Shown in pieces: positions 272 to 34,429 of a DNA stretch of 64,000 nucleotides. The notes under the pieces are model-generated. The model searched no databases. It was given only the letters and a program-made list of their open reading frames with translations, and was not told the DNA's origin. How positions within the stretch are numbered: position 1 is the stretch's first letter; every line of letters starts with the position of its first letter. Origin of the DNA: Cafeteria roenbergensis (Eukaryota; Sar; Bigyra; Bicosoecida; Cafeteriaceae); contig VLTN01000013.1 of assembly GCA_008330645.1 (NCBI GenBank), positions 124,001-188,000 on the forward strand, written 5' to 3'. The translations under genes and the position numbers were made by a program.

Positions 272-2860
272 ATGGACACCAGCGCCAGGCTGTCAAAGGA
301 GGCTTTTACCGGAAACAATGACGGAACTGACGCCTTCACCGTCCTGGGACTGATGGTTGTCGTCCCCGTGAGCTCGCTCGGCACTTGCCCGCTGCTGGCT
401 CGCGCCTCGATCCGTCCGGAGCCTGTTTCCCGAGGCCCCGCTCACTTTGCTTGCCGTGTCCATGCTGCGTGAACCGCCCTGCCGCCCCTGCCTGGGCGCA
501 GGCGGCCATCTTCCTGACCAAGGTTGCCTCGTCGCTTTTGCACTCGGGACCAGCCGGCGCACGCCAGGTGAGTCTGCGGGTGCGTGCTCTCCCGCTCCCC
601 CCCCACCCCCACCCCGTCGCGGCGCACCCATCGGTGGTTCGCGCCGGTCTTGCGCAGCCAGCGCGAGCGCATCGGCTCTCAGGGGGCGGGGCGACGCCGC
701 GTGGCCACTGCCGCCGTTGTCGCGTCTTCTCGCTCTTGGCTCGCCTCCGCAACCGCGCAGCCGCATGCCGTCGTGAGGTTTGCTGTGGAGTTCTGCATGT
801 TCGTGGTTCCTACTCTGCTCGCCATGACGTCGCTGGCGAGCCAGGCGTGGTGGCTGGCGGCCGCCCTTGTGGCCGCCGGCCTGCTCCTCGACGGACTCAT
901 GCGGGTCACGACGGGCCACCCCGTGGTCAGCCCCCGCCGCGCGGCTCGCCACGCGGCGTGGTCCTACGCATCGGGCCGTCCCCCGTTCCTCACCCACCTC
1001 CGCGCTGGGGTCTTCGTCGTCACTGTGCTGGCCATCCTCGCGGCAGACTTTCCGGCCTTTCCCCGCGAGCTGCTCAAGACCGAGGTGGCTGGCGTGTCGC
1101 TCATGGACATGGGCGTTGGGGCCGTTGTGCTTGGCGGCGCGGTGGCCTCCCGCCAGTCGCGCAGCGTATTCAGCCGCGCAGTGACTCTGGCCAACGGGCG
1201 CGCCGCCGCGGTCGAGGCCCAGCGGGCCGCGAGTCGATACGGGAGCCACGCGGCCAGCGCCGCGCGGCAGCTCTTTGGCCTGGAGGGCGCGTTCGGCAGC
1301 GCCGTGGCAGCCTCGGGGCCGTGCCTCTTGCTGGGGCTGCTGCGGCTCGCAGGCACCGCGGCCACCAACTACCAGACGCACGTTGGCGAGTACGGCGCGC
1401 ACTGGAACTTCTTCGTCACGCTGGCCCTTGTGGGGCCCCTCACGGTCGTGGCCGAGGCAGCCTGTGTGCTCTGCGGGCTCACCCCGCCGCTTGCCGAGTC
1501 CATGCGGTCGGACCAGGAGCTGCTCGCCGCCGACCCCGCACGGGACACCGACGAGGACGACGTGGCAGCGGCGAGGGCGCGGGCAGAGGCAGCATCCAGG
1601 CTGGCCATGGGAAGCCCCAGCGGGTTCCGAGGCGCTGCCGGGCAGTGGCTGGTGGACGCGCTCCCGCTCGTCGTGTGCGGGCTGTCCCTCTCGGGACTGC
1701 ACCAGCTGTGGCTGGCGAGCAGCGGCTTTGACTGGATCACGGGCCCCACGCGGCTGCTGGACGGCTCGGATGCCTCCAGCTTCCACATCGGCATCACGCC
1801 CTGGGCGCTCGTCGACGCGAACAGGGAGGGAGTGACCTCCATGGCGGGCTTCCTCGCCCTCTCCCTCATCGGCGTGGGCATCGGCAGGGGGGTGTTCCTG
1901 CCCCTCGCGCGGCACAAGGCCGTCACGGCCAGGGCCTCAAGGCTGCTCGCTGCGGCTGCTGGCGGCGCCGCGTACAACAGCTCGCTGGCGGAGGATGCGG
2001 CCGCGGACAAGGCCCCGGCCAAGCTGCGCCGCCCCGCAGCGGACGGGGTTGAACTGGACGATGCCGACTGCGACGATGAAGTCGCTCTGCCGGCGGAGGC
2101 GCTGTGGGGCATGGCCGCGGCCATGGGCATCACTGGGGCTGGCCTGGGACTGGTGTTTGGGCTGCTGCAGCTGTGGGACGGAGAGCGGCCCTCTGGCTGG
2201 GGCGCCCCCACGCCGGCTGAGGACACTTCGCGCGGCTTCGGGCCGCTGAGCCCCTCCCGGCGCACTGCCAACCTGACGTACGTTGTGGCCGTGGCCTCTG
2301 GCGTGGCCATCCTGCTGGCAGCCCTGCTCGCCGTGCACCTGCTTGTCGTTCCGTCTCCGGCGGTGGACAGGGCTGCCAGGGCCGAGCAAGCGGCGGCCGC
2401 GGGCGGCGCCCCCTTGCATGGGGAGGCGGAGAAGGGGCCTGCCGATGGAGCCGCCGACGACAGCGACGAAAGCGATGCTGACCATGACGTGGACGCGGCC
2501 GAATCGGAGGAGCAGACGCCAGCGCGGCAGCGCCGCCGCACGGGGCGCTCATCCTCGTCTTCCCGGCGGCGCCCGGGTCAGCTGCGAGCCAAGCCTGGCA
2601 GCGCAAGCGGGCAGCTGGCCGAGCCGCATCGCGAGCGGCTTGGGCCGTGGGTGGCGCTGCTGGACGCTGCGAACCGGCACCCTCTGACGTTGTTCTTGGT
2701 GGGGAATGTGCTGACCGGGGTCGTCAACCTCACGCTGCAGGACTTGACGCTGCGCACTCCCAACTGGGCAGCTCAGGCGCTGCTGGTCGGGTACGCCGCC
2801 GCATGCCTCGGGATTGTCTTCGAGCTGGACAGGTCGGGTCTGGTGCTGTCCGTGCTGTGA
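272..2860 (+). CDS. PIGW: GPI-anchor inositol acyltransferase, PIGW/GWT1 family, three exons
   Basis: Exons are 272-367, 502-567 and 761-2860, all joined in phase 0, giving about 753 residues. Introns are GTGAGC..CAG and GTGAGT..CAG. PIGW/GWT1 is the ER multipass enzyme that acylates the inositol of GlcN-PI during GPI-anchor synthesis. The N-terminus (SKEAFTGNNDGTD) matches the family start (KEAFVSNLNGT in the human protein). Exon 3 carries the hallmark block ILAADFPAFPREL followed by KTEVAGVSLMDMGVGAVVL, and the C-terminal NVLTGVVNLTLQDL block. Many hydrophobic segments fit a roughly 13-helix membrane protein. It is longer than the usual ~490-500 residues because of insertions, including an acidic then Arg/Ser-rich stretch at about residues 595-680. 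A start at an ATG inside exon 3 would lose the family N-terminus, so the spliced model is preferred. Confidence 0.88.
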
Positions 2861-6129: not shown

Positions 6130-8549
6130 TCACTCGTCAAGCCAGACGGCAACGGGTGCTGGCGTGGCAGGCGTGAGCGTCGACCCAGCGGGGGCCGCCC
6201 CAGCAGCGCGCTCCGACGGGACGCCAAGCTGCTTGAAGCGGCCGGACCTCACCCTGTTCACCGCGGCCGCCAGCTCGAACCGCCTTGGCCTCGTGAGCCC
6301 GTTGTGGAACCACCCCGGCTTGAAGGCATCCACGCCGCGCTCGTCCAGCATCCGCTCCGCAGTGTCAAGCACCTCGCTCATTGACGGGCTGCTCGACCGG
6401 CTGGACGCGCCGCCGGCACCCCTGGGCGTAGCGCCGAGCCCGCCGGCGGTGAGAACAGAGAGGACCTCAACGATGGCGCGCGTCTGACCGATCTCAACCA
6501 GCTGCTCCACGCCCGTCAGGTCCAGGGCCAGCGACTCGAATCCGGTCACGCGGTGCATGTCCCGCACGTGAGTCTTGCCTTCCAGCGCGAAACCGCCGGC
6601 CGGGCTCCGGTTCGTCGGCAGCGCCAGAGGCTTCGCACCGCTCCCCCCCGCCGCCGAGCGCCCACCCGCGTCGCTCAGCACCGCAGCGGCGCCCCCCGTC
6701 TCCTCGATGATCGCCTTGGCCCGCGCTGTGGCGTCGGCGGGGACGTACTCGTCGATGGCGATGACAAGGTCAGCCACTGCAAAGTAGTCCCCGGCGCCGC
6801 CCACGACCACGATTGTGGACACCCCGAATCGCTCCCACAGCTCCCTGGCGCGGGCGATGAAGGGCGTGATCGGCTCCTTGTCGGGCGCGATGAGGCGGGC
6901 CATGCGCGCGTCCCGGATCATAAAGTTGGTCGCGGACGAGTCCTCGTCGATCAGGAGCAGGTCAGCGCCGGCCTCGAGCGACTCAACGATGTTGGCGGCC
7001 TGCGACGTGCTCCCGCTGGCGTCTGCAGTGGAAAAGTCGGCCGTCGACCGCCCTCCCGGGAGGTTCTGGATGAACGCGCCAATGTCCACCGACGACACGG
7101 ACCGCCCGTCCTCGGCCCGAATCTTCACCGCGTTGGACGAGGACGCGACCAGCTCGCGCCCGTCCCCCGGAACGTGGTTGTACACCCCCACCTGCAGCGC
7201 CTGCAGCAGTGTGCTCTTGCCGTGGAAGCCGCCCCCGCAGATGAGCGTGACTCCCCGGGGCACCGCCATGCCCGTAACGGCCCCGGCGTGGGGCAGGCGC
7301 ACGGTCCGTCTGAGCGACGCCGGGGACCGGAATGGCACGGCAGAGCTTCCCTCCATGGGCGCGTCGCTCGCACCCGACGCCCTCGGAAGGATCGCCCCCT
7401 CCCGCACGAACGCTGCCAGCCCTGCTGGGCCCAGCGCGGCCCTGAGGCACTCCTGGTCCTCGGCGCTCTGCACGTGCGATTTGAGCGACGCGGCGTCAAG
7501 CGACGCGTGAATCATTGCTCTGCCGACGACGTCGGGAAGGTGCAGCCCGATCACCTCGGCAGCGTACTTGCCACACACGCTCCGCCCACGGGCCGGCAGA
7601 GCCACCGTAAACCGCGCTTCCAGGGTAGAGCCGCGAAGTGAGCACGCGGTGCGCTCGAGGATGTGCTGGGAGCACTGCTCGATGCGCAGGTCGCCGCCCT
7701 TGGCACCGTGCCACCCCCCGCCGCCGCCGGACATTGCGCGGTCGATGCCCTTGGCGGACACCGCGTCGTGGAATCGCCGGCAGACGAAGTCAGCCGCGGC
7801 CACGCGGCGCGTGTGGTTGACTGCGAGCGAGGGCGGGAACCCGGCGGCGCCAGCGTCCACCGTGACGTGGCAGCGGGAGGGCGCGGCGTACGCGTCCCCC
7901 TGAACGTGGTCCACCGTGAACGTGAAGGGCACGCCGGCCGAAGTCGCCCCTCCGGCGGCAGGGGCTGGGCGGGCAACGCCTTCCCAGGATCCCAGAATCT
8001 GTTTGTAGGCAGGGTACGGGGCCCCCTCGATGCTGCGCAGCAGGGTCTCCAGGTCCTCGATCGACCCGCGGTGGCGGGCGCTTGATGGGGCCGGGCTGGC
8101 GCTCGGCGAGGCGGCAGAAGGCGAGCTTCCGCCGTAGCTGCCCCCCCCGCCGCCGCCACGCCCACCGCCGCCGCCCCCACCGCGGCCGCGACCGCGGCCC
8201 CCGCCGCCATACTTGGCCTTGTAGTAGGCGCCTGCGTCAGCGGGAGGGGAGGGAAACGAGCACGGGCAACGAAGGTGGTTCAATTGCAGCTTCCAACACC
8301 AGCCGCTCGTGCAGCCAAGCGATCCGGACTGGCGCCCAAGCCCGTGCAAAGCGCAGGGCGCAACTCTGCGCGGCTGCCTGCGCGAGCGCGGACGATAAAT
8401 CGAGCTGGTGCTCGGCCCTGAGCCGTGCTGTCGCCATCTCGGCGGGGCTCACCCCTGCCTCGGCCGCCGCCGCCGCCGCGTCCTCCTCCTCTGCCGCCGC
8501 CGCCGCCGCCGCCTCCTCGGCCGCCGTATCCCCCGCCGTAGCCCGACAT
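6130..8549 (-). CDS. Predicted ATPase of the ABC class (P-loop ATPase), two exons
   Basis: Exons are 8549-8453 and 8231-6130, joined in phase 1 across a GTGAGC..CAG intron, giving about 732 residues. Exon 1 is a Gly/Arg run (MSGYGGGYGGRGGG), and the start of exon 2 continues it in RGG style, which suggests nucleic-acid binding (inference). The rest matches the widespread ABC_ATPase family found in bacteria and plants. A conserved N-terminal block (LETLLRSIEGAPYPAYK) is followed by a Walker A loop GGGFHGKST near residue 370 and a Walker B LLLIDEDSSATNFMIRD near residue 458. It has no membrane segments, so it is not a transporter. The physiological role of the family is poorly known. It is divergently paired with the ion-channel gene. 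Confidence 0.85.
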
Positions 8550-8859
8550 GCTGGTCCAGTCGTGTGCGGCCGGGGAACGACACGGGCCGCTGACTGCTTG
8601 CAGAGCCGCCCTGCCGATTCAATAAAGCAGTGCCTTTGGCAGCCTGGGGTTTCTGCCCGGCCGCGCTCGGCGCTTCCGGCCACCGTCGCGCACCGAGGTG
8701 ACGCAGGCTGCCTGGCCGCGCGACTGCGAGCGGGACCAACCGAGGGGACGCCGGCTCCCCAGCCAGCGGGCACGGCCGACCGGCGAGGCCTGCCGCTGGG
8801 CGGCCGAGCGACCCCGAGCGCCGCCAAGACTGCCGGCAGAACTGGAGTGGACGGCGGCC
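8550..8859. promoter_or_regulatory. Divergent promoter, ABC ATPase (-) / ion channel (+)
   Basis: 310 bp lie between the two start codons. The only AT-rich element I see is TTCAATAAAGCAG near 8619-8631, which could serve as a TATA-like element for either direction. The promoter role is inferred from gene layout only. Confidence 0.45.
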
Positions 8860-11800
8860 ATGCTCGCGGAGCCAGACTCGTGCGCGTCGAGAGTGCGGCG
8901 CTGGAGAGCGTGGCTCCTCCGGCACGTTGTCAAGGCCCGCTGGTTTGACGGCGTCGTGCTGGCGTGCATCGTTGCGTCGTCCGTTGTGCTCGCTTTGGCC
9001 AACCCGCTGGCCGCGCCGGGCGACCCGCTGCAGGACGGCCTCAACGTGGCCGACCTGGTGTTCCTGTGCGTCTTCGCCGTGGAGGCGCTCCTCAAGATCG
9101 TTGCCATGGGCGTTACGCGGCGCTGCGCCCCCTTGGCGCGCTGCTGCGCTGGCGGTTGTGGGTCTGGGTCGCTCGCAGTCGCCCCCGAGTCGGCTGCAGG
9201 GGGTGCGCCGGCGGGCGCGCAGGCAGGCAAGCTGAGTGCAGCTGGCACGCCCTTCGCCGTCGTCCACGGCGTGGCGGAGGCGGGGGAGGGCAGCGGCGCA
9301 CGCGGGAGCCACGCGTCGGCTGCGGCCGACACACCACAGCCCAATCGCAAGCGAAAGCGCCGCAGTTCCGTGTTTGCTGCCGGCGAGCGGATGATCGAGG
9401 CCGAGGAGCGCGAGGCGAACGACGGCTCCGGCCCGGGCTACTTTGACGTGGGATGGAACTGGCTCGACTTCGCCATCGTGGTCAGCGGGGCGGTGGAGGC
9501 GACGGCGGGCAGCGGCGGCGGAAGCAGCGCGTCGGCGCTTCGCTTGCTGCGTGCGCTCCGGCCGCTGCGCTCCATCAACCGCCTCCGCGCGCTCAAGGTG
9601 ATCGTGGCCACGCTTCTCACTTCCTTCGGAGACCTGGCCCAGGTCGGGGTGCTGCTGCTGTTTTTGTGGGCCGTCTTCAGCGTTGCGGCAATGCAGCTGT
9701 TTGGCGGGGCCCTTCACCAGCGCTGCGCCGCCACGGGCGAGGTGCTCAGCCCCAACCGCAACCCTGTCACGGGCGTGCCGTCCCTCGACGCGGCCGCGTC
9801 GATTGTTGGCTTTTGCTCCTCGCCGGGCGGCCCTCCGACGCCCTTGCCGAACCACTCGGACGCGCAGATATCGTCGTCTGGCTCCACGGGGGAGCTGCTG
9901 CAGCCCTTGGGCCAGTGTCCCCCCGGCCTGCAGTGCGGTGTGGCCTCCCGAGACCCGTGGTTCGGGTACGCGAGCTTTGACAACTTCGGGCTGGCACTGC
10001 TCAACGTGTATGTCGTCACCTCGCTTGCCAACTGGACCGCTTTAATGTACATGACGTTTGACGCCGTGGGCCCGGGCGCATTCGCCTTTTTTCTGCTCCT
10101 CACGCTGCTGACGTCCTTCTTCGCCATCAACCTGGTCGTGGCAGTGATCCTGCGGCGGTTCGAGGACGCGACTGCCGACACGGAGGACGAGGCGGCCGGG
10201 GCAGAGTCGGCGACGCAGGAGGAGGAGCTCGCAGCGGCCATGGAAACTCTGCGGGCAGCCCGCGACGCCACGTCCGCGGCAGTGGCCGCCACGCTGGCCC
10301 AAGCTCGCGCAGGCCACAGCGCCTCAGTTGAGCCCTCGCCCACCGTGTCGGGCGCAAGCGGAGACGGGCGCGGTGCCTTTGAGGTCAGCACCGGCGGGGA
10401 GGCCAGCGCCAAGAGCGGAGCCACCGACGGCTGGGAGGACGCCACGGCGGGTGCGGCTCGCTCCGGCGCGTCGTTGCATTCCCGGTCGCACTCTCGGTCT
10501 CGCGCCGCCGATTCAGGGCGATACGAAGGTGGCGCCGTCAGCGGTGCCGGGCCCACGCCCCTTGCCTGGGCGCAGGCTGTCTCTCGCGAGGAAACCCCCG
10601 GCAGCGACGCAGGGGTTCACGGCGCAAGCGTGGAAGGCGACGCGGCCGCGAAGCGTCGCTCGGCCGACCAGACGCGGCAGCCGTCGCCGGTGGCGAGCTG
10701 GCAGGCCGGCGGGACGGGGGCGCCCGCTCTGGCGGCTTCACCGGGGGCGGGAATCGGGCCCGCGGCGGCTGCGAGCCGCGCCGGCCGCGCTGGCGACAGC
10801 ACGGGCAGGCCCCATGGCGGCGCGATCAGAACCGGAGGTCGAGTCGCGTGGGCGGCGGGCGACTCGGACCCGGTTCAGCTGCGCGGCCGCGCCCGCGGCA
10901 GGGCGGGGAGGGGCCACAGCGACCGGCAGGGCGCTCCTCGGGGGCGGGACAGCGGCGCTGGCATGAGCCCGAGCAGCGCGTCCTCCGGCGCAGGGCTGCC
11001 CGTGGCGGCATCCCGGGGAAGCGACCGGCGGAGCGCCGGGCAGGCGACGGAGGAGCTGAGCAGCGAAGCGCTGACCGGTGACACGAGCATGATGTCGGCT
11101 GCGGACAAGGTGGCGTTCGCCGGCACGCTCACCGCCGCGCTCGCGCTGGACACCGGGTCCCAGCGGCTGCTACGCGTGCCGGCGCGGATGCGCGCTGCGG
11201 TGGCGGCCGAGCAGCAGAAGCGGCTGCGCGTGGTGGATCTCGCGGTAGTGGCGCAAAAGTCCACTTCGCGTCTGGTGAAGTTCCGCCCGACGGAGATGGT
11301 GCTGGAGGAGGTGAGGTCGATGGCCGACCTGCGGGTCACATCGCGCGGGCGCATGCGGGGGGCGGCGGGCGGCGCAGCCAGCGGGTCCGCGTCGTCCGAG
11401 TCGAAGCACCTGGCAGGCCCGGCGGTGGTCGTGGGGCGCTCAAGCAATGCATCGGGGGCGAGTGGCGGCGGGCGGCGCAGCAGTGGCGGGCGGCCTGGCA
11501 GGCCGGAGCCGCGCAGCCGAGCGAGCTCGGCGACCGGGTCACCTCGGCAGGACGCCGCAGACCGGCGCCGGCTGAACGGCTCTGCCGACGACGACGACCT
11601 GGACGTCACTTCGCGCGGCAGCCCCCGGAGCGGCGCCGCGGGGGGCCTTGTGCCGCTGCTGCCGCCGACAGCTGAGTGGAAGGCGCGGTCTCACTCCGAG
11701 GCCGTGGGCGCGCGGCGGCCCCGCCGGAGCGCGGAGGCGCCGTCTGGGGGCAGCGCGGGCGAGGACGTTCACCCGTACGCCGAGACGACGTCGGGATCCG

Positions 11801-14800
11801 AGGCGGGAACAGCGTCGCGGGCAGGCGCGACTGCCGAGCCGTCGCCCGTGCGGTGGGAGCCGCCGCGGGTGCGGAGCCGCCTGGGAGCCGGCAGCAGCCT
11901 TGCTGGGAGTGCCAGCCGGGCGAGCGGGGACAGCGGCGCTACGGGCAAGCCGCCCTCCAGCGGAGCGCGACGGGCTCGGACCAGCATCCCGTTCGTCGGA
12001 GCCACAACGGAGGCCGCGCCCGCCGCGCCAGAGGCGGTGTCTTCGTACCCGGGGTCGCAGGGCGGGTTGCTCGCGCACGCGGGTACGCGGCTCCTCTCAG
12101 CGATGATTTTCATTCGCCGGGCAGACCGCATCCTGCGGCAGCGGCTGCAATACCTCGAGGGCAAACCAGCGGCGGTCCTGTGGCTGAACAGGGCTGTGCA
12201 GTCTGGCGTTTTCGCGTCGCTCATCATGCTCGCGATCGTGGCGAACACGGTGGTGCTTGCCATGGACCGGTACGACCTGACCGCCGGCGAGGACTTTGTG
12301 CTGGAGAGCATCAACGCGGGCCTCACCTTCCTATTCGCCGCGGAAATGGCGGCCAAGCTGCTGGGGCTGGGGTGGCGCGAGTACGCGGCGGACGGGTTCA
12401 ACCGTTTCGACGCCCTCATCGTCGTCGTGTCGCTTGTGGAGCTGGCGGTCTCGGGCCTGCCCAGCCGGCCGGCGGACCCCAGCGTGCCCGCTACAATCGT
12501 GTCCGGGGGTGCCCTCAGCGTGCTGCGCACGTTTCGGCTGCTGCGCGTGCTCAAGCTCGCGCGCACGGTCAAGTCCGTCCGGACGCTGCTGCTCGCCATT
12601 CTGGACTCGCTGCCAGACGTGGGGTGGATGACGGCTCTGCTCGTGCTGTTCCTCTTCATTTTCTCGGTCCTGGGCGTGCAGCTCTTCGCGGGGGTGATGG
12701 GCGGCGTGGAGGACGCGGGCATCGCGTTTGACAGCTTCTCCGAGTCAGTGCTCGCAGTGCTGCAGATAGTGACCGGGGACGACTTTCCGCTTGCCATGTC
12801 GGCCGTCGCAGAGGGCTCTGGGAGCGGCTGGTCCATCGCGTACTTTCTCTTGCTCCAGTCCTTCGGCGCGTACATCGTGATCAGCCTCTTCGTGGCGGTG
12901 CTCCTCGCCAAGCTGGCGCAGCAGACAGACGACTCGCTCGACGAAGAGGACTTCACTTCCCTTGCGCTGGCGTGGAGGGAGAAGTCGCTGAGGTCGGTGC
13001 CGGGTCAGCCGCCCGTGTTCGCGCCGCAGCTGCCTGCGGCAATGTCCTTGGCCGAGCGGCTGCGGGCGCTGCATCAGGAGCGATTGACGGCCGTTCGCGA
13101 GAAGCGTCGCAAGGCTGTCACAGGGGCAGGCGGCGTGTGGGCCGACAGCGACGACGATGAGCCCGCCACCACCGCCCCGGGGCACGGGCCGGCCGGGTCA
13201 GCCGTGCCCTCGCAGGCCACGTCGTCTGCCAACACTCCGGGGACCTTTTACACGGCGAACGGACATCGCGATAGCGACGCCGCGGGCCCTACGTCGTCGA
13301 GCCACGAGCTTCACCCCTCAAGGCAGCAGCTCCAGGGGCGGGGCCAGCCACAGGCGCTGCGGGCGCCGCCTCGCGCGGATGCGCGGGGCTGCACTGCTCC
13401 CCTCGACCTGCTCGACGTCACTGACCCGTCGCCGCGCCAGCTGGGGTCAGCCGACCCGCCGGGCGCTCTTGCGGACAAGCTGGCGTCGGGCGACGCCTCT
13501 GCCGCCCCGCTGAGCACCAGGTCCGGCAGAGCCGCCATGCTCGGCCAAGCCGCGTCGAACAGGAGCCTTCTCAGCGACGACACGTCGGGCCAGCGGCGGC
13601 GCAGCGCGTCCACTGCGACCGGCGAGCCCCCCACCCCCACGGGCGGGGCGGCCGGTGCGTCTCCCTCAGGCAGGAGCCACGGGGCCGGCGCGGGCGGCGC
13701 TGGGCAGTCCTTCAGCGCGTTCCCTCCCGCAGAGAGGCGCAGCGACGCCCCCCGCATGTCTGTGGGCACAGCTGACCCCGCTGCAACCAGCGGCCACGTC
13801 ATCGATCCTCGCACGTGGGGGCCGGGCGTGGACCCGCCAACCGACCTTGCTCTCGGCTGCCTGAGCCCCGCCAACTGCGCGAGGCAACGTGCCTACCGCC
13901 TGGCCCACTCGCCGTGGGTCGAGGCCGTGGTGCTGTGTCTGATCCTCCTCTCATGTGTCTGCCTCGCGCTCGACAGCCCGGAGCTGGACCCGTCCAGCCA
14001 GCTGGCGGTGGCGCTGCAGTGGCTGAACGTGGTGTTCGCCGTGCTGTTCGCCCTGGAGGCCGCGATGAAGGTGGTGGCGCTCGGCCTGTGGACGGGCCCC
14101 GCCCCAAACAGCCGCCTCGGCCTCCCGCAGGGGTATCTTCGGAACGCGTGGAACCTCATCGACGCCGTCGCCGTGGTCTTCTCAATCGCGGCCCTGGCTC
14201 TGCCCAGCGTCGGCGCGCTTCGCGTGCTGCGCGCCGTCCGCCCGGTGCGCGTGGTGGTGCGCTCCCCCGAGATTCGCATCGTGCTGCGGGCTCTGCTGGC
14301 AGCCTTGCCTTCCATCGCCAACGTGACGGCTCTCACGCTTCTGCTGTGGACGATTTTTGCCATCCTGGGCGTGTCGCTGTTCAAGGGAACGCTGTCCTCC
14401 TGCACCGACCCTTCGGTCGAGACCAAGGCGGCTTGCAACGGAACCTTCACGGGCGAGGACGGCTCGGTGGTGGCCCGCGAGTGGGGCCCCACGGCCGCTG
14501 ACTTCGATTCGTACCCCGGAGCGATGCTGACGCTGTTCCAGGCTTCGACGCTGAGCGCCTGGGCGGAGATGGCGAGGGTCATGATGGCGGCCCGCGGCGT
14601 GGACCTGGCCCCGAGCGGGAACGGGTCCCCGTTCAGCCTCGTCTACATGGCCTCCTTCGTGGTGGTTGGGAGCTGGCTCTGCCTGCAGCTCTTCACAGGC
14701 GTGGTGATCGACCGGTTCAGCCAGCTCCGGCGGGAGCTCGACGGCTCCGCGTTCCAGACCGAGAAGCAGCGGCGCTGGGCGAACACACGCAAGCTGCTCC

Positions 14801-17800
14801 GGGCGGTCAACCTCGAGGTGCGCAACGACCCTCCGGCCGGCTGCCTTCGCCGGGCTGCGTTCAACGTCGTGGAGCACGCGTGGTTTGAGCCCGCCGTGCT
14901 CGGCGTCATCCTGGCCAACACGCTGGCGATGACGCTCCAGTACTACGGCCAGAGCCCCGCGTGGGCCGCGGCCCTGGAGACGGCCGACTGGGTGTTTCTC
15001 GGCATCTTCACCGCGGAGGCCTTCCTCAAGCTCCTTGGCCTCGGCCCCGCGGTCTACTTCAAGGACCGCTGGAACGCCTTCGACGCCGCCGTGCTCGTCG
15101 TGTCGTACGCGTCCCTCGCGTTTCCGTCGGGAACGGGGGCGCCGGTGCTCCGCGTGTTCCGGCTTGGGAGGGTCCTGCGGCTGGTGCGCCGCGCCAGGAC
15201 GCTGCACAACCTCTTCCAGACGCTGGTGATGGCTCTGCCGGCGTTGTACAACGTGGGGGGGCTGCTCGCCGTGCTGTTCTTCGTCTTCAGCGTGGTGAGC
15301 ATGGGGGTGTGCGGGGACGCCGCGTTCGAGGACCCGGACGGCGAGGGCATCAGCCGGTTCGCGCACTTTCGAAACATCGGAATGTCGCTGATGACCCTCT
15401 ACCGCGTGTCGACGAACGACGCCTGGGAGGGGATCATGCGAAGCTGCCGCGCCGCGGCGCCCACGCCGGCGGGGGAGTCGCTCGTCACCCTCTTCTTCGT
15501 GGTGTTCATGGTGACGGTGAGCATGAGCATGCTCCAGCTCCTCATCGCCGTGGTGATTGAGACCTTCACGGAGCGGCAGGAGGCCGACGCGCAGGAGGAG
15601 ACGCTGGAGCGGGTGCGCCTGTGGACGTCGACGTGGAACCGAGAGTACGACCCGACTGCCGAGCGGTGGGTCCCGGCGTCGCTCTTCGCGTCGCTCCAGT
15701 GCGACGCCCCGGCGCCCTTTGGCTTCGCCACCACCGCTCTCTCCAGGGCGTCGGTGCAGCGGCTGCTGCTCCGCGTGCGCGTGGATGTGGTGAAGCGGCC
15801 CCATGGGACCGTGGCAAAGGCTGCCGCGAGGTTCATGGCCCGGCGCTACGGCGCAGTCAAGGCTGGGAACGGCCAGAGGCGGAAGCACGACCGCAAGCCG
15901 GGCCTCGGCAGCAGCGGTACCGGTGGGGTCGGCAGCAGCGGCGGCAACTTGAGCCAGTCGTCAGCGGCGGCAGGCGCCCCCTCGCACGTGTCCGCGGTCG
16001 TCCGGGCGCGGCGCCTGCTCCAGCGGGTGACCATTCGAAGCCGCGCGGGGGCGACTGGCAGCGAGGCCGGTTCCGTTTCAGCTCGCGGCGGGTCAGGCTT
16101 CGTCGGCGTCGTGGCGGCCCCTGCGAGCCGCAGCTCGTCACCGTCTCGGCGGCAGGTACCTGCGTCCCCGGTCACCTTGGCCGCAGGAGCCTCTCCGCGT
16201 CTGGGGCCGATGAGCGGCTCGGCCGCCACCGCGGCGCCCCCCGCCGGCGGAGCCACTGGACCGGCGACTGGCGCTCCGGCTCCAGCTGCTGGTCCTGCTG
16301 CTGCTGCTGCTGCTGCTGCCGCTGAAGCGAGGCAGGCCCGGCCCTCTGGCTCTGCCGCCGCTTCATGGGGCTCTGCCAAGCCTCCCCTCGTGCTCAGCGC
16401 GGCCGCTCGCGCCCGGCCCGCGCAGGCATCTGCGGCGGCCGTCCCTGCTCACAGCCGCGCCGCGTCCGGCGGCTTGCTTGGCGCCGCCAACGCCTCCACA
16501 AGCAAGTGGACCGCTAGCGTGGATCGCACAGACTCAGCCGACGTCAACCTCGCCTCAGCTTGCCGCACCCAGGACAGCGCGGCCACGTCAGGCGTGGCTG
16601 GGGCCCATCCCACGCCTCAGTCCACGACGATTCGGGGCCTGCCTGCCCGACGAACCTCCTTGTCCGACGGTCCGGGGATGTCCCTCGTGGTGGGGCGGCT
16701 GGGCCCCCTGAGCGGGTCGGGCGGGAACCAGGCGCTCCAGTGGGGCTCCGTGGCTCCTGATGCGGCCCCGACGGAGGTGCGTGTCGTGGAGGCCTGGGCT
16801 CTGCCGGCTGGCGTCCGTGGGCGCTTCCACGTGCGCCCGTTGGCCAGGGCCGGCGGCTTTGCAGCGGGTCCGATCCTGGCGACACAGGCCCAGCTGCTGG
16901 GCATGGAGGCCGGGGCGTGGATGGGCGGGCTGGCGGCCGTGGCCACGGCGGTGGGCAGCCCCCGCGCCGGCGACGCTGGCCGGGCGAGGGGCTGGCGCCG
17001 GAGCACGGCCGGCCAGTTCGGGCTGCCGCTCAGCGGGCAGGGCGGTGGGCGGGTTGGCCCCGCGGCAGGGGCCAACGCTGCTGCCGCCAGCCGCGGCCTT
17101 GCAAGCGCGCGTGCCAGCGCTGAGCCCGAGAGGGAGCTTCCCGTGGCGGCGGGGTGGTCGTCAATGCCGCACGCTGCCGTGGAGCGCGAATGCGGCGACG
17201 GCGCGCCTTCTGACGGGCCCGCCGCGGGCGCCGTGCCTCGGCGGGCGTCGGGGCAGGCGCCAGTGCGGGAGCGGCCTCCGGAGCGCAGGGTAGCCGCAGC
17301 GCGCGCGGCCGCTGCTGCAGCTGCCACTGGCGCTGGTGATGGAGATGGTGCTGCTGGTGCTGGCACGGCGGCGGCCAGTGGCGGCGTCGGCGGTGGCGGC
17401 GGCGGTGGTGGCGTCGGCGGCATCGCGGCGGGCGGCGCTCGCGGTGGTGGCTCCCTGGCCGCTTCCAGGATGCCGGCCAAGTCGGGAGGTGCGGCTGCGG
17501 GCACGGCTGACGAGAGCGGATCCGTGGAGCTGCGTGGGGCTCTGCCGGCCCGCCCGACGACGGGGCCCGCTCCTGCCGCGCCGCTGCGAGCCGTCGGGCC
17601 GGTGGCCACGTCGCGATCGGCTGCTGCGGGGCACGGGCTGCGTGTGGACGCCAGCCGCGAGACGCTCGACGACGCGACGCAGACGGAGGGCGCCGCCGCG
17701 AACTCTGGCCCGGGGGGTGCGGCAGCCGCGGCGTCCCCCCCGCTGCTGACACCTGCTGCCGTCGTGTCGCCCGCAGCCGTGCTGCCTCACGGGCTGGCGG

Positions 17801-18249
17801 CCGAGCCCCTGCAGCGGCGCGCTGGCCGCCCCCCGGCGCTGACGTCCGTGACGAGTGCTGGGCAGCACCCGCTGATGACTTCCGCGTCGAGGGAGCGCGG
17901 CGGCAGGAGCGGGCGGTCTTCAAGCTGGGCGTCGTCCCGCTGGCTGGCCGCCAACGCGCGCCCCACCGGCGAGTCGGCCGGGTCCATCGACCAGCGAAGG
18001 GGGCCCACCGCGCTTGAGAAGCCCGAGCTGTGGGTGGTCGAGTTCAACAGCGCGATTCACGCCCTGGCCAAGGTGGTAATCGGGCTCCGGACCAGCACCG
18101 ACAACAGGCGGCAGCTGCTGACTCGGCGATTCTTCCTGCACGAGTGGTTCGCTGTGGAGACCATCTCGCTGTGGTGGCTGGAAATCGAGCGGCGGGCGAG
18201 GCACGAGGCAATGGCTCAGTCGTCTGGGGCGGACGAGTGGCCGGAATGA
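8860..18249 (+). CDS. Four-domain voltage-gated cation channel alpha subunit, atypical filter
   Basis: A single uninterrupted frame of about 3129 residues starts at the ATG at 8860. Four six-helix domains are visible, with S1 near residues 28, 1115, 1687 and 2007. The S4 segments carry regularly spaced Arg/Lys (domain I RLLRALRPLRSINRLR; domain II RTFRLLRVLKLARTVKSVR; domain IV RVFRLGRVLRLVRRAR). The pore loops align gap-free with calcium channels. The four filter positions are Ala390 (SLANW), Asp1307 (TGDDF), Ser1899 (STLSAW) and Asp2187 (STNDAW). The family normally has EEEE (Cav), DEKA (Nav) or EEKE-type (NALCN). Long disordered linkers join I-II (about 650 residues) and II-III, and a roughly 900-residue Gly/Ala/Ser-rich tail follows domain IV. 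The III-IV linker has the usual short length. It acts in a membrane, probably plasma or flagellar. Ion selectivity cannot be told from sequence. Confidence 0.93.
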   Translation: MLAEPDSCASRVRRWRAWLLRHVVKARWFDGVVLACIVASSVVLALANPLAAPGDPLQDGLNVADLVFLCVFAVEALLKIVAMGVTRRCAPLARCCAGGCGSGSLAVAPESAAGGAPAGAQAGKLSAAGTPFAVVHGVAEAGEGSGARGSHASAAADTPQPNRKRKRRSSVFAAGERMIEAEEREANDGSGPGYFDVGWNWLDFAIVVSGAVEATAGSGGGSSASALRLLRALRPLRSINRLRALKVIVATLLTSFGDLAQVGVLLLFLWAVFSVAAMQLFGGALHQRCAATGEVLSPNRNPVTGVPSLDAAASIVGFCSSPGGPPTPLPNHSDAQISSSGSTGELLQPLGQCPPGLQCGVASRDPWFGYASFDNFGLALLNVYVVTSLANWTALMYMTFDAVGPGAFAFFLLLTLLTSFFAINLVVAVILRRFEDATADTEDEAAGAESATQEEELAAAMETLRAARDATSAAVAATLAQARAGHSASVEPSPTVSGASGDGRGAFEVSTGGEASAKSGATDGWEDATAGAARSGASLHSRSHSRSRAADSGRYEGGAVSGAGPTPLAWAQAVSREETPGSDAGVHGASVEGDAAAKRRSADQTRQPSPVASWQAGGTGAPALAASPGAGIGPAAAASRAGRAGDSTGRPHGGAIRTGGRVAWAAGDSDPVQLRGRARGRAGRGHSDRQGAPRGRDSGAGMSPSSASSGAGLPVAASRGSDRRSAGQATEELSSEALTGDTSMMSAADKVAFAGTLTAALALDTGSQRLLRVPARMRAAVAAEQQKRLRVVDLAVVAQKSTSRLVKFRPTEMVLEEVRSMADLRVTSRGRMRGAAGGAASGSASSESKHLAGPAVVVGRSSNASGASGGGRRSSGGRPGRPEPRSRASSATGSPRQDAADRRRLNGSADDDDLDVTSRGSPRSGAAGGLVPLLPPTAEWKARSHSEAVGARRPRRSAEAPSGGSAGEDVHPYAETTSGSEAGTASRAGATAEPSPVRWEPPRVRSRLGAGSSLAGSASRASGDSGATGKPPSSGARRARTSIPFVGATTEAAPAAPEAVSSYPGSQGGLLAHAGTRLLSAMIFIRRADRILRQRLQYLEGKPAAVLWLNRAVQSGVFASLIMLAIVANTVVLAMDRYDLTAGEDFVLESINAGLTFLFAAEMAAKLLGLGWREYAADGFNRFDALIVVVSLVELAVSGLPSRPADPSVPATIVSGGALSVLRTFRLLRVLKLARTVKSVRTLLLAILDSLPDVGWMTALLVLFLFIFSVLGVQLFAGVMGGVEDAGIAFDSFSESVLAVLQIVTGDDFPLAMSAVAEGSGSGWSIAYFLLLQSFGAYIVISLFVAVLLAKLAQQTDDSLDEEDFTSLALAWREKSLRSVPGQPPVFAPQLPAAMSLAERLRALHQERLTAVREKRRKAVTGAGGVWADSDDDEPATTAPGHGPAGSAVPSQATSSANTPGTFYTANGHRDSDAAGPTSSSHELHPSRQQLQGRGQPQALRAPPRADARGCTAPLDLLDVTDPSPRQLGSADPPGALADKLASGDASAAPLSTRSGRAAMLGQAASNRSLLSDDTSGQRRRSASTATGEPPTPTGGAAGASPSGRSHGAGAGGAGQSFSAFPPAERRSDAPRMSVGTADPAATSGHVIDPRTWGPGVDPPTDLALGCLSPANCARQRAYRLAHSPWVEAVVLCLILLSCVCLALDSPELDPSSQLAVALQWLNVVFAVLFALEAAMKVVALGLWTGPAPNSRLGLPQGYLRNAWNLIDAVAVVFSIAALALPSVGALRVLRAVRPVRVVVRSPEIRIVLRALLAALPSIANVTALTLLLWTIFAILGVSLFKGTLSSCTDPSVETKAACNGTFTGEDGSVVAREWGPTAADFDSYPGAMLTLFQASTLSAWAEMARVMMAARGVDLAPSGNGSPFSLVYMASFVVVGSWLCLQLFTGVVIDRFSQLRRELDGSAFQTEKQRRWANTRKLLRAVNLEVRNDPPAGCLRRAAFNVVEHAWFEPAVLGVILANTLAMTLQYYGQSPAWAAALETADWVFLGIFTAEAFLKLLGLGPAVYFKDRWNAFDAAVLVVSYASLAFPSGTGAPVLRVFRLGRVLRLVRRARTLHNLFQTLVMALPALYNVGGLLAVLFFVFSVVSMGVCGDAAFEDPDGEGISRFAHFRNIGMSLMTLYRVSTNDAWEGIMRSCRAAAPTPAGESLVTLFFVVFMVTVSMSMLQLLIAVVIETFTERQEADAQEETLERVRLWTSTWNREYDPTAERWVPASLFASLQCDAPAPFGFATTALSRASVQRLLLRVRVDVVKRPHGTVAKAAARFMARRYGAVKAGNGQRRKHDRKPGLGSSGTGGVGSSGGNLSQSSAAAGAPSHVSAVVRARRLLQRVTIRSRAGATGSEAGSVSARGGSGFVGVVAAPASRSSSPSRRQVPASPVTLAAGASPRLGPMSGSAATAAPPAGGATGPATGAPAPAAGPAAAAAAAAAEARQARPSGSAAASWGSAKPPLVLSAAARARPAQASAAAVPAHSRAASGGLLGAANASTSKWTASVDRTDSADVNLASACRTQDSAATSGVAGAHPTPQSTTIRGLPARRTSLSDGPGMSLVVGRLGPLSGSGGNQALQWGSVAPDAAPTEVRVVEAWALPAGVRGRFHVRPLARAGGFAAGPILATQAQLLGMEAGAWMGGLAAVATAVGSPRAGDAGRARGWRRSTAGQFGLPLSGQGGGRVGPAAGANAAAASRGLASARASAEPERELPVAAGWSSMPHAAVERECGDGAPSDGPAAGAVPRRASGQAPVRERPPERRVAAARAAAAAAATGAGDGDGAAGAGTAAASGGVGGGGGGGGVGGIAAGGARGGGSLAASRMPAKSGGAAAGTADESGSVELRGALPARPTTGPAPAAPLRAVGPVATSRSAAAGHGLRVDASRETLDDATQTEGAAANSGPGGAAAAASPPLLTPAAVVSPAAVLPHGLAAEPLQRRAGRPPALTSVTSAGQHPLMTSASRERGGRSGRSSSWASSRWLAANARPTGESAGSIDQRRGPTALEKPELWVVEFNSAIHALAKVVIGLRTSTDNRRQLLTRRFFLHEWFAVETISLWWLEIERRARHEAMAQSSGADEWPE
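16288..16326 (+). repeat. CTG/GCT trinucleotide run in the channel tail
   Basis: A near-perfect (CTG)n run, read in frame as GCT, gives a poly-alanine tract in the disordered C-terminal tail of the channel. Confidence 0.8.
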
Positions 18250-29331: not shown

Positions 29332-31695
29332 ATGCCCCACGTCCCTGGCCCCTCGCTGGAGCAGCCGCCCGCCAAAGCCCCGCCGCCCCGCCACCCGGAC
29401 ATGATCGTCGATCCCGCGTGCATCACCCCCGAGGACAGGGCGGGCCAGCTCTCTGTCCGAGCCGTCTTGGTCGGGTCCGTCATCGGCAGCATGCTGTGCG
29501 CAAGCAATGCCTTTTTCGCGCTCCAGACGGGCTGGGTGACCATGGCCTCCCTGCAGGCCGCAGTGGTCGGCTTTGGCGTGTTTCGCGTCGCTCACAGCTC
29601 GTGTGGCTGCCGCCGCCTGACCATGCTGGAAAACGTGGTCGTGCAGACGACCTCGGTGGCAGCTTCAACGCTGCCCTTGGCGGCCGGCTTTGCCGGAATC
29701 ATTCCCGCATTCGAGCTGATGCGCAAGGAGGGCCACCCGGGCGCCCCGCCCGAGCTCTCCATGGCCAGCCTGTTCCTGTGGGCCGCTGTGCTGAGTCTGT
29801 TCGGCGTGTTCCTCGCCGTGCCGCTGCGCCGCGACGCCATCCTTGTCGAGCGCCTCAAGTTCCCCTCGGGCACGGCCACGGCCGAGGTCATCGCGGTGCT
29901 GCACAGGGTTGCCGCCCCGAGCCCCCCCAGCGGCACCCCCGCGATTGGGCTGTCCGACGCCTCGCAGCTGGAGCAGCCGCAAGCCGGGGCTGTTCCTGCT
30001 GCCGCGGCCGGCGAGGCAGCCGCTGCCGGGAGCGCCAAGGTTTCGGGACGCGACGCGCCAGCGGCCGAGGAGCCTGGCATGTCCGTTGCGGAGCAGGACG
30101 AGGCCAGCGAGGACGCCGCGTGGACGCAGCGGTGGCGGGTGCTTGGCTTCACAATGCTGGCCGCAGCGGCCGTCAGCGTCGTCACGGAGTTCGTGCCGGT
30201 GCTCCACTCCCTCCCCGTGTTCCAGTGGATGGGCGTGCCCCTCGCCACGGCCGTGGGGTGGACCATCACCCCAAGCCTGTCGTACGTGGGTCAGGGCATG
30301 ATCATGGGCCCGCGCACCACGGCATCGATGCTCCTGGGGTCGGTGCTCGCGTGGGCCGTCATGGCCCCTGTAGCGCAGGCGGCGGGCTGGTCAAGCGGCC
30401 CCGTGGGCGGCGCCGAGCACGGCGTCAAGGGCTGGGTCACGTGGCTGGCGCTGGCGGTGATGCTGGGCGACTCAGTCGTGATCATCGGCTCCACCTTCTG
30501 GCGCCTCGTCGGCTCGCTCAGGGCAAAGTACGGTTCGCGCATGCCATCTGCCGTGTGCTGCAGAGGCCTCTGCGGTGCCGGGAAAGCGCCCTCGTCAACG
30601 CCGCAGGAGGGCGCGTCGCTCATTCCCCGCTCGCACTCGAGCGACCCCGCGAGCCCGTTGGTCCGCGGCGAGGCGGGCGCGGGGGGGGCAGCGGGCGGCG
30701 TGGCCGCGGCCGTGGACCCTGCCGTTGCGGAGGGGACCCTCCCCTCCTCGCTGGAGCTCCAAGTGCTGGATCCGGCCGAGGAGGCCGGCGAGAACGTTCC
30801 AACGATGTTCTGGGTGGTCGGGCTCGCCCTGGGCACGGCGGCGTGCGCTGTTGCGCTCTCGGTAATGTTCAACTCGCCCATCTACGAGCCCCTGGTGGCT
30901 GTGATGCTCTCCTGTCTCGTCGCAGTCGTCGCGGCTCGCGCACTCGGCGAAACGGACCTCAACCCCGTGTCTGGCGTGGGCAAGCTGTCGCAGCTATTCT
31001 TCGCAGCCGTGGCGCCCGGAAACGTGACCTCGAACATCGTGGCCGGCGCCGTGTCCGAGGCGGGAGCCCAGCAGGCCGGAGACTTGCTCCAGGATCTCAA
31101 AACGGGCCACATGCTGGGCGCAAGCCCCCGCGCCCAGTTCTTCGCGCAGATCGCAGGCTCGCTGGTGGGCGTCGTGGTCAGCGTGGTGGCCTACAAGCTG
31201 CTCACGCTCGCCTACCCTGTCGGCGGCCCGGAGTTGCCGGCCCCGACTGCCCGCGTGTGGCTGGGCATGGCGGAGCTGGTCAACGGGCAGCAGCTCCCTC
31301 CCTATGCGGGCCTCTTCGCCGGCCTCTTCGGGGCCGCCGCGCTCCTCGTGTCGGTGCTCAAGGCCTGGGCGGGACGCCCGGAGCCGGGGGAGGCCGCTTG
31401 GCGCCGCACGCTCCGCGGCGCCATGGCCTGGGCGCCCAGCGTGATGGCGGTCGGCGTGGGCATGTACATCGCGCCCAACTGGGTCCTGCCGCGGTGCGCG
31501 GGCTCGCTGCTGCAGGTGGTCTGGAAGCGCACCAACAGCGCCGGGCACGACAGGCTGATGCTGCTGGCCGCCTCCGGCTTCGTGCTGGGCGAGGGCCTCA
31601 TGTCCATCGCAAACGCCGGCCTGCGGGCGGGCGGCGCGGAGCCCTGGACTTGCGACGGCTGCGTCGGGGAGCTGGCATGCTCTGGGTGCCCCTAG
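29332..31695 (+). CDS. OPT-family oligopeptide / metal-chelate transporter
   Basis: A single frame of 787 residues from the ATG at 29332. It has many hydrophobic helices typical of the OPT superfamily (usually 12-16), whose members import peptides or metal complexes such as metal-nicotianamine. Family-like blocks are the first helix region (SVIGSMLCASNAFFALQTGW), the ENVVVQTTSVAAS block and a C-terminal GEGLMSIANAGLR block. A disordered loop lies near residues 195-260 and another near 415-480. The extreme C-terminus carries four cysteines spaced CX2CX5CX2C (TCDGCVGELACSGCP), unusual for the family as I know it and suggestive of metal binding. Substrate cannot be assigned. Confidence 0.85.
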   Translation: MPHVPGPSLEQPPAKAPPPRHPDMIVDPACITPEDRAGQLSVRAVLVGSVIGSMLCASNAFFALQTGWVTMASLQAAVVGFGVFRVAHSSCGCRRLTMLENVVVQTTSVAASTLPLAAGFAGIIPAFELMRKEGHPGAPPELSMASLFLWAAVLSLFGVFLAVPLRRDAILVERLKFPSGTATAEVIAVLHRVAAPSPPSGTPAIGLSDASQLEQPQAGAVPAAAAGEAAAAGSAKVSGRDAPAAEEPGMSVAEQDEASEDAAWTQRWRVLGFTMLAAAAVSVVTEFVPVLHSLPVFQWMGVPLATAVGWTITPSLSYVGQGMIMGPRTTASMLLGSVLAWAVMAPVAQAAGWSSGPVGGAEHGVKGWVTWLALAVMLGDSVVIIGSTFWRLVGSLRAKYGSRMPSAVCCRGLCGAGKAPSSTPQEGASLIPRSHSSDPASPLVRGEAGAGGAAGGVAAAVDPAVAEGTLPSSLELQVLDPAEEAGENVPTMFWVVGLALGTAACAVALSVMFNSPIYEPLVAVMLSCLVAVVAARALGETDLNPVSGVGKLSQLFFAAVAPGNVTSNIVAGAVSEAGAQQAGDLLQDLKTGHMLGASPRAQFFAQIAGSLVGVVVSVVAYKLLTLAYPVGGPELPAPTARVWLGMAELVNGQQLPPYAGLFAGLFGAAALLVSVLKAWAGRPEPGEAAWRRTLRGAMAWAPSVMAVGVGMYIAPNWVLPRCAGSLLQVVWKRTNSAGHDRLMLLAASGFVLGEGLMSIANAGLRAGGAEPWTCDGCVGELACSGCP

Positions 31696-31919: not shown

Positions 31920-34096
31920 TCAGTAGGCCTTGCCCAAGTAGAGGGCGGCGGCACGCGACAGGGCGGCGGTATCGGCCGCCGTTTCCTCCGCAGCGACCAC
32001 GCCCCGCACGCCGACCTCCTCGCCGTCCGCAGCCGCCATCGAGCCGACGCCACGCCTGGGCGCCCAGTCCGCCCCGCCCGCGCCGATGGCAGAGTCGGAC
32101 CCGTCGTGCAGCGCCCCGAACGTGTATCCGTTGGCCTTGTCCACGGCCCTCGTGACGTCGATCACGCTGTCCTTGTCCATCACGTTCAGCGGCCGGAACC
32201 CCACCAGTCCGAACTCGTCGACCAGCCCCAGCAAGGCGGAGTTCAGCCCACGCCTCCTGTCAAGGAACCCCCGCAGCTTCGCCAGCCTGGCGCGTGCATC
32301 GGCCTTGCTCTCAGCTGCGGCGGCGTCAACTGCCGCGCCGCCCCCCGGCGCAGCGGGCTCGCAGTCGGCACCGCACGCACCGCCGCTGGCAGCGCCGCAC
32401 GCAGCACCGCACGTCGCGGGCGCGCTGTCCGCCGCCTGTGCTGCCGAGGCATCGCCCTCCTCGGCGGCGTCTGACTCGACCTGTCCGTCCCACTCGCCGT
32501 GCTGCTTCGGCTCTGGCGCGCTCTCCAGACCCGCGGCCTCCTCTGACAGGCCCAGCGCCTTTGCCGCCGCCTTGACGTGCCGCCTGCTCTGCTCGTCGAT
32601 GAGGCCCATGACGCGCCCCGGCTCATCCAGCCGGGCGAAGAAGTCTAGGCCAAAGGCTGCGCCCGGACGGATTGACAAGCGGGCGAGCAGGGGGCGGGGA
32701 GGGGGGTGTGGGGTGGGGTGGGGTGGAGGGGGGGGGGTGGAGCGTTGGCGCGGGGGCCTCTCGCGGCGGCTGCAGCGGGTCTCGGTCTGTCCGCCGTGGC
32801 CGGCACGGAAATCGCGGCGCCGGACCGCGGCGAAGCCAGCAGCAGCAGCGGCGCTCATGGCCCCGGGTCGAGGTGCGAGCCGGGCGGGCGGCCGCGGGCC
32901 TCGGTGCGGGCTCACGCAGCGGTCCGTAGCGTTCTGCGATGTCGATTTTGGACAGGATGTTGACGTGGGGCAGCTCCAGGCGCATCATCGTGTTCAGCGA
33001 GAGGAGGGAGGCGGAGATGATCTTGGAGGGGTCACTGCAGTGGTGGGCATCCACGAGATGCACAGCAGCGAGCTGCGCGCGCGAGGGGGGAAGGGGAATG
33101 GGGGGCGGGGAGGGGCGGGGGGTTGAAGGCTGACAGGGCGGCGGCTTGCCTGTCGGCTCAGGTGGGGCGGTGGCACTGCGGCAGAGGACACGGTGCGAAC
33201 AGAGCGCTGAGCGGCGGGGGCGAGAGCGACACGGCAGCGGGTTCAGCCGCCGCCTCGGGAGCGGACGCGGCCGCTACGACGGCGGGCGTGTTCCCAGCGC
33301 CTCTGCCCACTGCCCGCCGCTCACCCGGAGCTTGAGCGGCCCGACAAGGCGCCGGACCACGGCGAGAAACGACGGCGACTGCGTGAAGAGCTCTGCCTGA
33401 CCGGGGCAGTCGATGAGCACGTACGCGCCTGTGAGCGGGCAGGGACGGGGCACGGGCGGAGCGGCAGAGGGAGCGGGGAGTATGGGCGTTGGTGTGCCTG
33501 CGGCCGGTTGGTGGGCTTTGAAGAACCAAGCTGCACAGGTGCCGCAAGCCTGTGGTGGCAAAAGCCGCGCGGGAGTGCCGGCCGAGCGGCGCGAAGCCAC
33601 AGCATGCGAGGCGGCGCGCTCGCTGGCTCGCCACGGGCGCGGGCGCTGAGGCGCCCCCAGCGCTCACCGCCGGAACTCTCTCGCTGGATGGCCTGGATGC
33701 GCTCGTCCAGCCAGGCCGCGTTTTCGGCGAGGAAGTCCATGCAGTACATCAGCCCCCCGTTTGGCCCCAAGTCCATCGCCTCCATTACGTCCGAGCAGGT
33801 GATGAGGTCGGCAATGTCAAGAGCGCACGGGTACGGCAGCTCGTCGTTTGCGGGGTCCAGGTTGATCACCACAGGCCGCCTGCGCGGTGGTGACGTGGGA
33901 TGGCAACCGCACCACGCTCGCGAGAGGGCTGGCCACGGGCAGCACAGAGCGCCCCGCCCCCGCCACCCGTTGCACAGACGCTTTGCACGCCTGTGAAGGT
34001 GGCTCACCTTCCAATGCCGCTCAGGAACTCGTGCATGCCCGTGCAGTACGTGCTCTTGCCCGAGCCCGGCGGGCCAATCACCAGCTGCCCGAACAT
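31920..34096 (-). CDS. GPN2: GPN-loop GTPase 2, five exons
   Basis: Exons are 34096-34008, 33879-33668, 33428-33325, 33072-32916 and 32656-31920, with phases 2, 1, 0 and 1 all matching and every donor GTGAGC, giving about 432 residues. GPN GTPases act in assembly and nuclear import of RNA polymerases. Motifs in order are the P-loop GPPGSGKST (residues 8-16), INLDPAN, the defining GPN triplet at 68-70 ([14 protein letters not shown]), DCPGQ and SKID as the base-recognition motif. [14 protein letters not shown] and [10 protein letters not shown] favour GPN2 over GPN1/GPN3. An Ala/Cys/Gly-rich insertion in exon 5 makes it longer than the ~310-residue human protein. The block [16 protein letters not shown] then [13 protein letters not shown] closes the fold. 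The start is the ATG just ahead of the P-loop. Confidence 0.92.
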
Positions 34097-34429
34097 GGCC
34101 CCGGCCTCGAGCTGCGCAGCAGCACGCAAGCTTTCAACGAAGGCCTGGGAGTGACGCCTCAAGGCACGGGCAGTGGCCTGGGGCCGCGCGCCGCGAAGCG
34201 CCGCGTCGCTGAGGAGATTTGGCCTCGCAGTGTCGCTGACTTGCTCTGCAGCCTCGTGAACCGTCGCTGTTTGCATCAGGAGAGACAAGTGCGCACCTGG
34301 CGACTGGACTCGCCCGCGGCCGGGAAGGCACGAGCTGCCTCCTGGCCCAGCCCCAGTTTACTCAAGCAAGAGCGAGCACCCTCGGTGCGCCGGAGGGGGG
34401 GGCGGTCGCGCGGCGCCCGCGCGGCCGCA
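34097..34429. promoter_or_regulatory. Divergent promoter region, GPN2 / disordered protein
   Basis: 333 bp separate the two start codons. No clear TATA box or repeat is visible. The role is inferred from layout. Confidence 0.35.

Follow-up and report, generated by a model that had tools for sequence, protein, structure and literature searches.

Which cations would pass through a four-domain channel that has lost two of the four acids of its selectivity filter, and is such a filter genuine in the first place? The question is raised by a gene of Cafeteria roenbergensis (now named Cafeteria burkhardae) that lies in a stretch of 64,000 nucleotides from contig VLTN01000013.1 (positions 124,001 to 188,000 of the forward strand), referred to here as the window. 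Its four pore loops read A/D/S/D where Cav channels read EEEE. Two published sources disagree on what sets the preference for Ca2+ or Na+, with the relevant parts of one pointing to the acidic ring of the filter (PMC12146731) and those of the other to a beacon residue (PMC10120453). The window channel and one paralog, C26, separate these two features: domains I and III (DI and DIII) have lost their ring acids, and domain II (DII) has kept its beacon. Seven sister genes with EEEE filters provide a natural contrast in the same organism. Currents recorded from these channels would bear on the roles of ring and beacon and on a possible second, non-Ca2+ electrical signal in a heterotrophic stramenopile.

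An intact four-domain channel gene

The frame encoding the channel is open from stop to stop over 3207 codons (8626-18249, forward strand). Its first ATG, at 8860, begins a gene (8860-18249, forward strand) for an uninterrupted protein of 3129 residues, which matches the Pfam Ion_trans family (PF00520) with 645 bits in five stretches. Four domains are covered, all on the forward strand: DI at 8938-10182, DII at 12208-12933, DIII at 13912-14736, and DIV at 14875-15582. In the genome-wide PF00520 search, the DI match is split into two pieces (8938-9114 and 9436-10182, profile positions 2-59 and 62-240), separated by sequence rich in Ala and Gly that lies between S2 and S3. Six segments from DI to the C-terminal region were tested for stops; the coding frame had none and the five other frames had 0 to 22, and GC3 in the domain segments was 0.85 to 0.92. 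No NCBIfam family was matched by the protein or by C26, and no repeat within the gene was found to bear on the filter.

Four S4 segments with regularly spaced arginines are present in the window channel and likewise in C26. Arg-rich S4 segments are a feature of Cav channels, and their presence in all four domains makes voltage gating of the window channel likely. The original prediction of a four-domain channel of the voltage-gated type is thus upheld by the intact frame, the Ion_trans matches across four domains, and the S4 charges.

The inactivation gate motif of Nav channels is IFM. At the corresponding place, the III-IV linker of the window channel carries SAFQT (14746-14760, forward strand), and that of C26 carries SAFMT. 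The stretch surveyed comprises 56 residues, between limits that we chose after GVVID of the DIII S6 and before WFEP of the DIV S1. PMC5824947, in its account of the III-IV linker, describes the Nav-type gate as three hydrophobic residues followed by Thr or Ser. By that description, Ala-Phe-Met-Thr of C26 is canonical, whereas Ala-Phe-Gln-Thr of the window channel is noncanonical because the Gln at its third position is polar.

The selectivity filter reads A/D/S/D

Alignment with phmmer and inspection of the codons placed the filter at Ala390 in DI (GCC, 10027-10029), Asp1307 in DII (GAC at 12778), Ser1899 in DIII (AGC, 14554-14556), and Asp2187 in DIV (GAC, 15418-15420), all on the forward strand and numbered exactly as in the original prediction. 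The HFS+1 positions are occupied by Asn391 in DI, Asp1308 in DII, Ala in DIII, and Ala in DIV. Translation and codons also agree with the predicted replacement of Trp by Phe in DII, where Phe1309 occupies HFS+2 (Asp1307 to Phe1309, 12778-12786, forward strand).

From the FD block to the filter Trp, the alignments contain no gaps. Ala390 stands opposite Glu of Cav3.3, Asp1307-Asp1308 stand opposite Glu-Asp of Cav3.3, and Ser1899 aligns with Glu of Cav1.2 and with Asp of Cav3.1. Asp2187 aligns with Glu when DIV of the query is set against DII of Cav3 and Cav1.2, and also when it is set against the seven EEEE paralogs. The gap-free correspondence with Cav pore loops that had been claimed for all four domains therefore holds for DI to DIII against Cav chains and for DIV by way of Cav DII and the EEEE paralogs.

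The ring differs from the Cav filters EEEE, EDEE, and EEDD, and the beacon Asp by which Cav channels are recognized at DII HFS+1 is present as Asp1308. Two acids, facing each other in DII and DIV, had been counted before; that arrangement stands, but Asp1308, which adds another acid to the filter, had been overlooked.

A paralog with the same filter pattern

The genome (36,303,456 bases in 167 contigs) was searched with PF00520, which returned 92 matches; scores were assigned to the best candidates alone. Among these best-scored candidates, 10 four-domain loci were found: C28, C73, C99, C7, C26, C49, C17, C27, C13 (the window gene), and C13b. The paralog set was limited to such loci; those with one or two matches were left out, apart from five read for context (L046 to L050), and C4 was dropped as a four-domain channel, its pore being of the single-domain potassium type. 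Seven of the 10 filters read EEEE, C26 reads S/D/S/D (S580, D1357, S1761, and D2048), the window gene reads A/D/S/D, and C13b has no acid. The longest open frame of the ten, at 5540 codons, belongs to C49 (L037 to L039), an EEEE channel.

C26 is the best own-genome match to the window channel, at 507.6 bits compared to 289.7 bits for the next gene. In a tree built from the 10 own-genome channels only (1021 columns, the four filter columns excluded, and with C13b, C27, and C17 on long branches), the window gene and C26 grouped together with support of 100/100. Their ring positions compare as A/S, D/D, S/S, and D/D. Both have Asn at DI HFS+1, where the other eight rows of the alignment have Gly, and both have Asp at DII HFS+1, which among the other eight channels is found only in C28. 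In raw counts, 15 of 20 residues from HFS-2 to HFS+2 are identical between the two, and over the aligned core 487 of 997 are identical. The identity of the filter neighborhoods would be in keeping with constraint, although higher conservation of the pore loops is common in channels generally.

Similarity between the two genes extends to a C-terminal segment (residues 3057-3106; 18028-18177, forward strand). When the last 90 residues were compared by blastp with the 10 own-genome channels, C26 was 34% identical over 53 columns (E = 8e-5), and all other non-self matches had E values of at least 0.14. The DI Ion_trans match is split at the same profile place in both genes; this S2-S3 split was dropped as a mark of the subfamily, as C28 and C7 likewise have DI matches that break in two near that place.

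These sequences place A/D/S/D in a two-gene [A/S]-D-S-D subfamily and make an error very unlikely, because C26 reads S/D/S/D and the clade is recovered at full support without the filter columns. The distinct subfamily that had been anticipated, should relatives share the pattern, is accordingly borne out within this genome as a monophyletic group of two members with a shared filter. The two channels need not behave alike, because the window channel has Phe at DII HFS+2 and Gln in its gate motif. C26 itself (L036, contig C26, 112 to 121 kb) carries an extra Asp at DIII HFS+1, in addition to its canonical SAFMT.

The ring of C13b (P0003; L044:921-8096, contig C13, about 570.4 to 577.6 kb) reads P/G/R/S when aligned with MAFFT and A/G/R/S by eye. 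This gene lacks Trp at HFS+2 in DI and DII and has no DIV S4 under a strict script pattern, and it possibly encodes a nonconducting or strongly altered channel. Its membership in the [A/S]-D-S-D subfamily is not supported, nor is its exclusion firm (AU P = 0.068, with a long branch and unsure placement). Beyond the genome, no relative of the window channel was found in a viral contig collection, and a genome contig collection gave one distant match of 23% identity, an Ion_trans-like stretch (L051:5001-5759) on a contig labeled as a Paludibacteraceae MAG (bacterial).

Relation to known channel families

Among the best 60 of 157 matches to chains of solved structure, Cav3 chains are the top matches of the window channel (462 bits), followed by Nav (434 bits) and Cav1 (419 bits); the best NALCN chain scores 194 bits. 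Likeness to Cav3 and to Cav1/Cav2 extends to the four Ion_trans domains, the gap-free pore loops, the DII beacon Asp, and the Arg-rich S4 segments. The window channel differs from them in reading A/D/S/D instead of EEEE or EEDD, in the Phe at DII HFS+2, and in its SAFQT linker. The beta-subunit site of the I-II linker (AID) is confined, according to PMC5824947, to HVA Cav channels.

Metazoan Nav1 and Nav2 resemble the window channel in the score of the best Nav chain and in having a III-IV motif where the IFM gate lies. However, the filter is not DEKA, DKEA, or DEEA and contains no Lys, the DII loop is not shortened, and the third gate position is Gln. NALCN and Cch1 are likewise four-domain channels, and NALCN filters include non-EEEE forms as well, but membership in this group was rejected on score, on S4 charge (Arg-rich rather than Arg-poor), and on a filter that lacks Lys and is none of the NALCN types EEKE, EKEE, and EEEE.

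TPCs have two Ion_trans domains per chain and so differ from the window channel, which has four, with acids in DII and DIV, and which among solved structures matches Cav and Nav best. The likeness to TPCs is one of pattern only: neutral DI and DIII alternate with acidic DII and DIV in the manner of two TPC halves, and DI reads Leu-Ala-Asn compared to Thr-Ala-Asn in two TPC-like genes of the same genome. These two-domain genes (L046 and L047, contigs C50 and C24) carry Thr-Ala-Asn in the first filter and Val-Asn-Asp or Val-Asn-Asn in the second.

Divergent filters in the literature

Filters listed outside animals and fungi include SESE, RSDD, RADD, TDEE, and TEND (PMC6259924, citing Verret et al. 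2010). PMC5824947 likewise describes highly varied motifs, with lysine-bearing filters in oomycetes and cryptophytes; those of oomycetes include A/G/K/E, S/S/K/E, and D/D/K/D. The protist SESE channel (PMC6259924) has acids solely in DII and DIV, as does the window filter; in this comparison, made by filter letters only, the window channel differs in having Asp rather than Glu in DII and DIV and Ala in DI. The contrast originally drawn with EEEE, DEKA, and EEKE-type filters holds, but the pattern is less isolated than that contrast implied, in view of the non-EEEE protist filters in these two sources (PMC6259924, PMC5824947).

Among the open-access papers listed, none reports on these Cafeteria channel genes by title, and the terms "Cafeteria" and "bicosoec" are absent from the main text of PMC5824947. 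In the portions consulted of two other sources, the Cafeteria channels described are PKD channels and not four-domain channels (PMC7399828), and the organism is mentioned for klinotaxis only (PMC7935092). We regard A/D/S/D as a new filter variant within a family already known for its variability, and the presence of the pattern in a second gene strengthens the finding.

Proposed function and competing readings

Building on the observed gene, filter, S4 charges, and clade with C26, we infer with moderate confidence the gating, selectivity, and cell role of the window channel: a voltage-gated four-domain cation channel that is weakly selective, permeable to Na+, and partially blocked by Ca2+. 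As the anatomy suggests, depolarization would move the four Arg-rich S4 segments and open the pore. DI and DIII would supply small neutral side chains (Ala and Ser), and DII and DIV would supply the carboxylates of Asp1307 and Asp2187; with Asp1308 placed just above Asp1307 in DII, the acidic ring would be roughly twofold instead of fourfold. Na+ or mixed cations would probably pass because two of the four acidic ring residues are lost. Such a pore may hold one Ca2+ weakly while Na+, other monovalents, and some Ca2+ pass, and the Asp1307/Asp1308 pair could produce the partial Ca2+ block.

In the Cav1 simulations reported in PMC12146731, the DIII Glu is a main contributor to valence selectivity and to the binding of two Ca2+ ions; the DIV Glu rarely touches Ca2+, and the HFS+1 Asp is given a minimal role. 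By analogy, the Ser in DIII of the window channel would point to a weak, one-Ca2+ pore that is permeable to monovalents. Under the beacon classification of PMC10120453, in contrast, an Asp at HFS+1 goes with Ca2+ selectivity or strong Ca2+ block, so that these parts of the two sources pull apart on the window channel. In addition, PMC5824947 raises the extracellular portions of the pore loops as possible determinants of selectivity. Judged by these analogies, the pore is most likely permeable to Na+, weakly selective, and partly blocked by Ca2+; Ca2+ selectivity is the main rival to this reading.

Under that rival, which we consider unlikely but well short of negligible, Asp1307-Asp1308 together with Asp2187 would suffice as a Ca2+ site, whose affinity would only be lowered by the neutral residues of DI and DIII. 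Both subfamily members keep the beacon Asp that C28 alone has among the seven EEEE paralogs, and the beacon rule (PMC10120453) would then apply to them. However, two of the three Glu residues that coordinate Ca2+ in the Cav1 simulations, those of DI and DIII, are missing in the window channel.

An outright Na+-selective channel without a filter lysine is improbable. The reduced ring charge would suit it, as would the neutral, non-glycine HFS+1 residues (Asn in DI, Ala in DIII, and Ala in DIV), a feature linked to Na+ permeability in one-domain channels (PMC10120453), and splice forms of invertebrate Cav3 pass Na+ without a filter Lys (PMC6259924, PMC10120453). Yet the Na+-selective Nav and NALCN filters on record in PMC5824947 and PMC6259924 carry Lys, and beacon Asp1308 is present.

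That the protein is a poorly conducting or nonconducting voltage sensor with a decaying pore strikes us as quite improbable. Its frame is intact across all 3129 codons, and between the window gene and C26 identity is higher in the filter neighborhoods than over the core, even though the DII Trp at HFS+2 has given way to Phe and the same genome holds in C13b a more degenerate four-domain gene with no acid at the aligned ring positions. Hardly credible is an assembly, frame, or exon artifact that masks EEEE, in favor of which nothing was found: a filter error is very unlikely because at least seven base changes across the four codons, as counted from the codons, would be needed to restore EEEE and because C26, a separate paralog, reads S/D/S/D, while the pore loops fall within a single open frame, with GC3 of 0.85 to 0.92 in the domain segments, and the assembly was polished with PacBio and Illumina reads (PMC6972860). 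Sequencing or frame error was rejected on the codons, the paralog, and the open frame.

The weakly selective, Na+-permeable reading can be carried further, more tentatively, to the origin of the pair. The two genes could form a bicosoecid subfamily of their own, derived from a Cav-like ancestor that became a voltage-gated monovalent-cation channel through removal of the DI and DIII acids, with those of DII and DIV and the beacon kept. Such a path to Na+-driven excitability would be lysine-free, twofold, and TPC-like, and would have arisen independently of animal Nav; we offer it as possible but doubtful.

Neighboring genes

Within the window, no link was seen between the channel and its six annotated neighbors. 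These encode GWT1 (584-2860, forward strand), an ABC_ATPase/MRB1590-like protein (6130-8349, reverse strand), an OPT transporter (29332-31695, forward strand), an E1 ubiquitin-activating enzyme (44768-47395, forward strand), a histidine kinase-type ATPase with a receiver domain (48258-52094, reverse strand), and the beta subunit of Phe-tRNA synthetase (60894-62573, reverse strand). A further open frame of 2158 codons, with no Pfam match at an E value of 0.01, extends from 33887 to 40363 on the forward strand.
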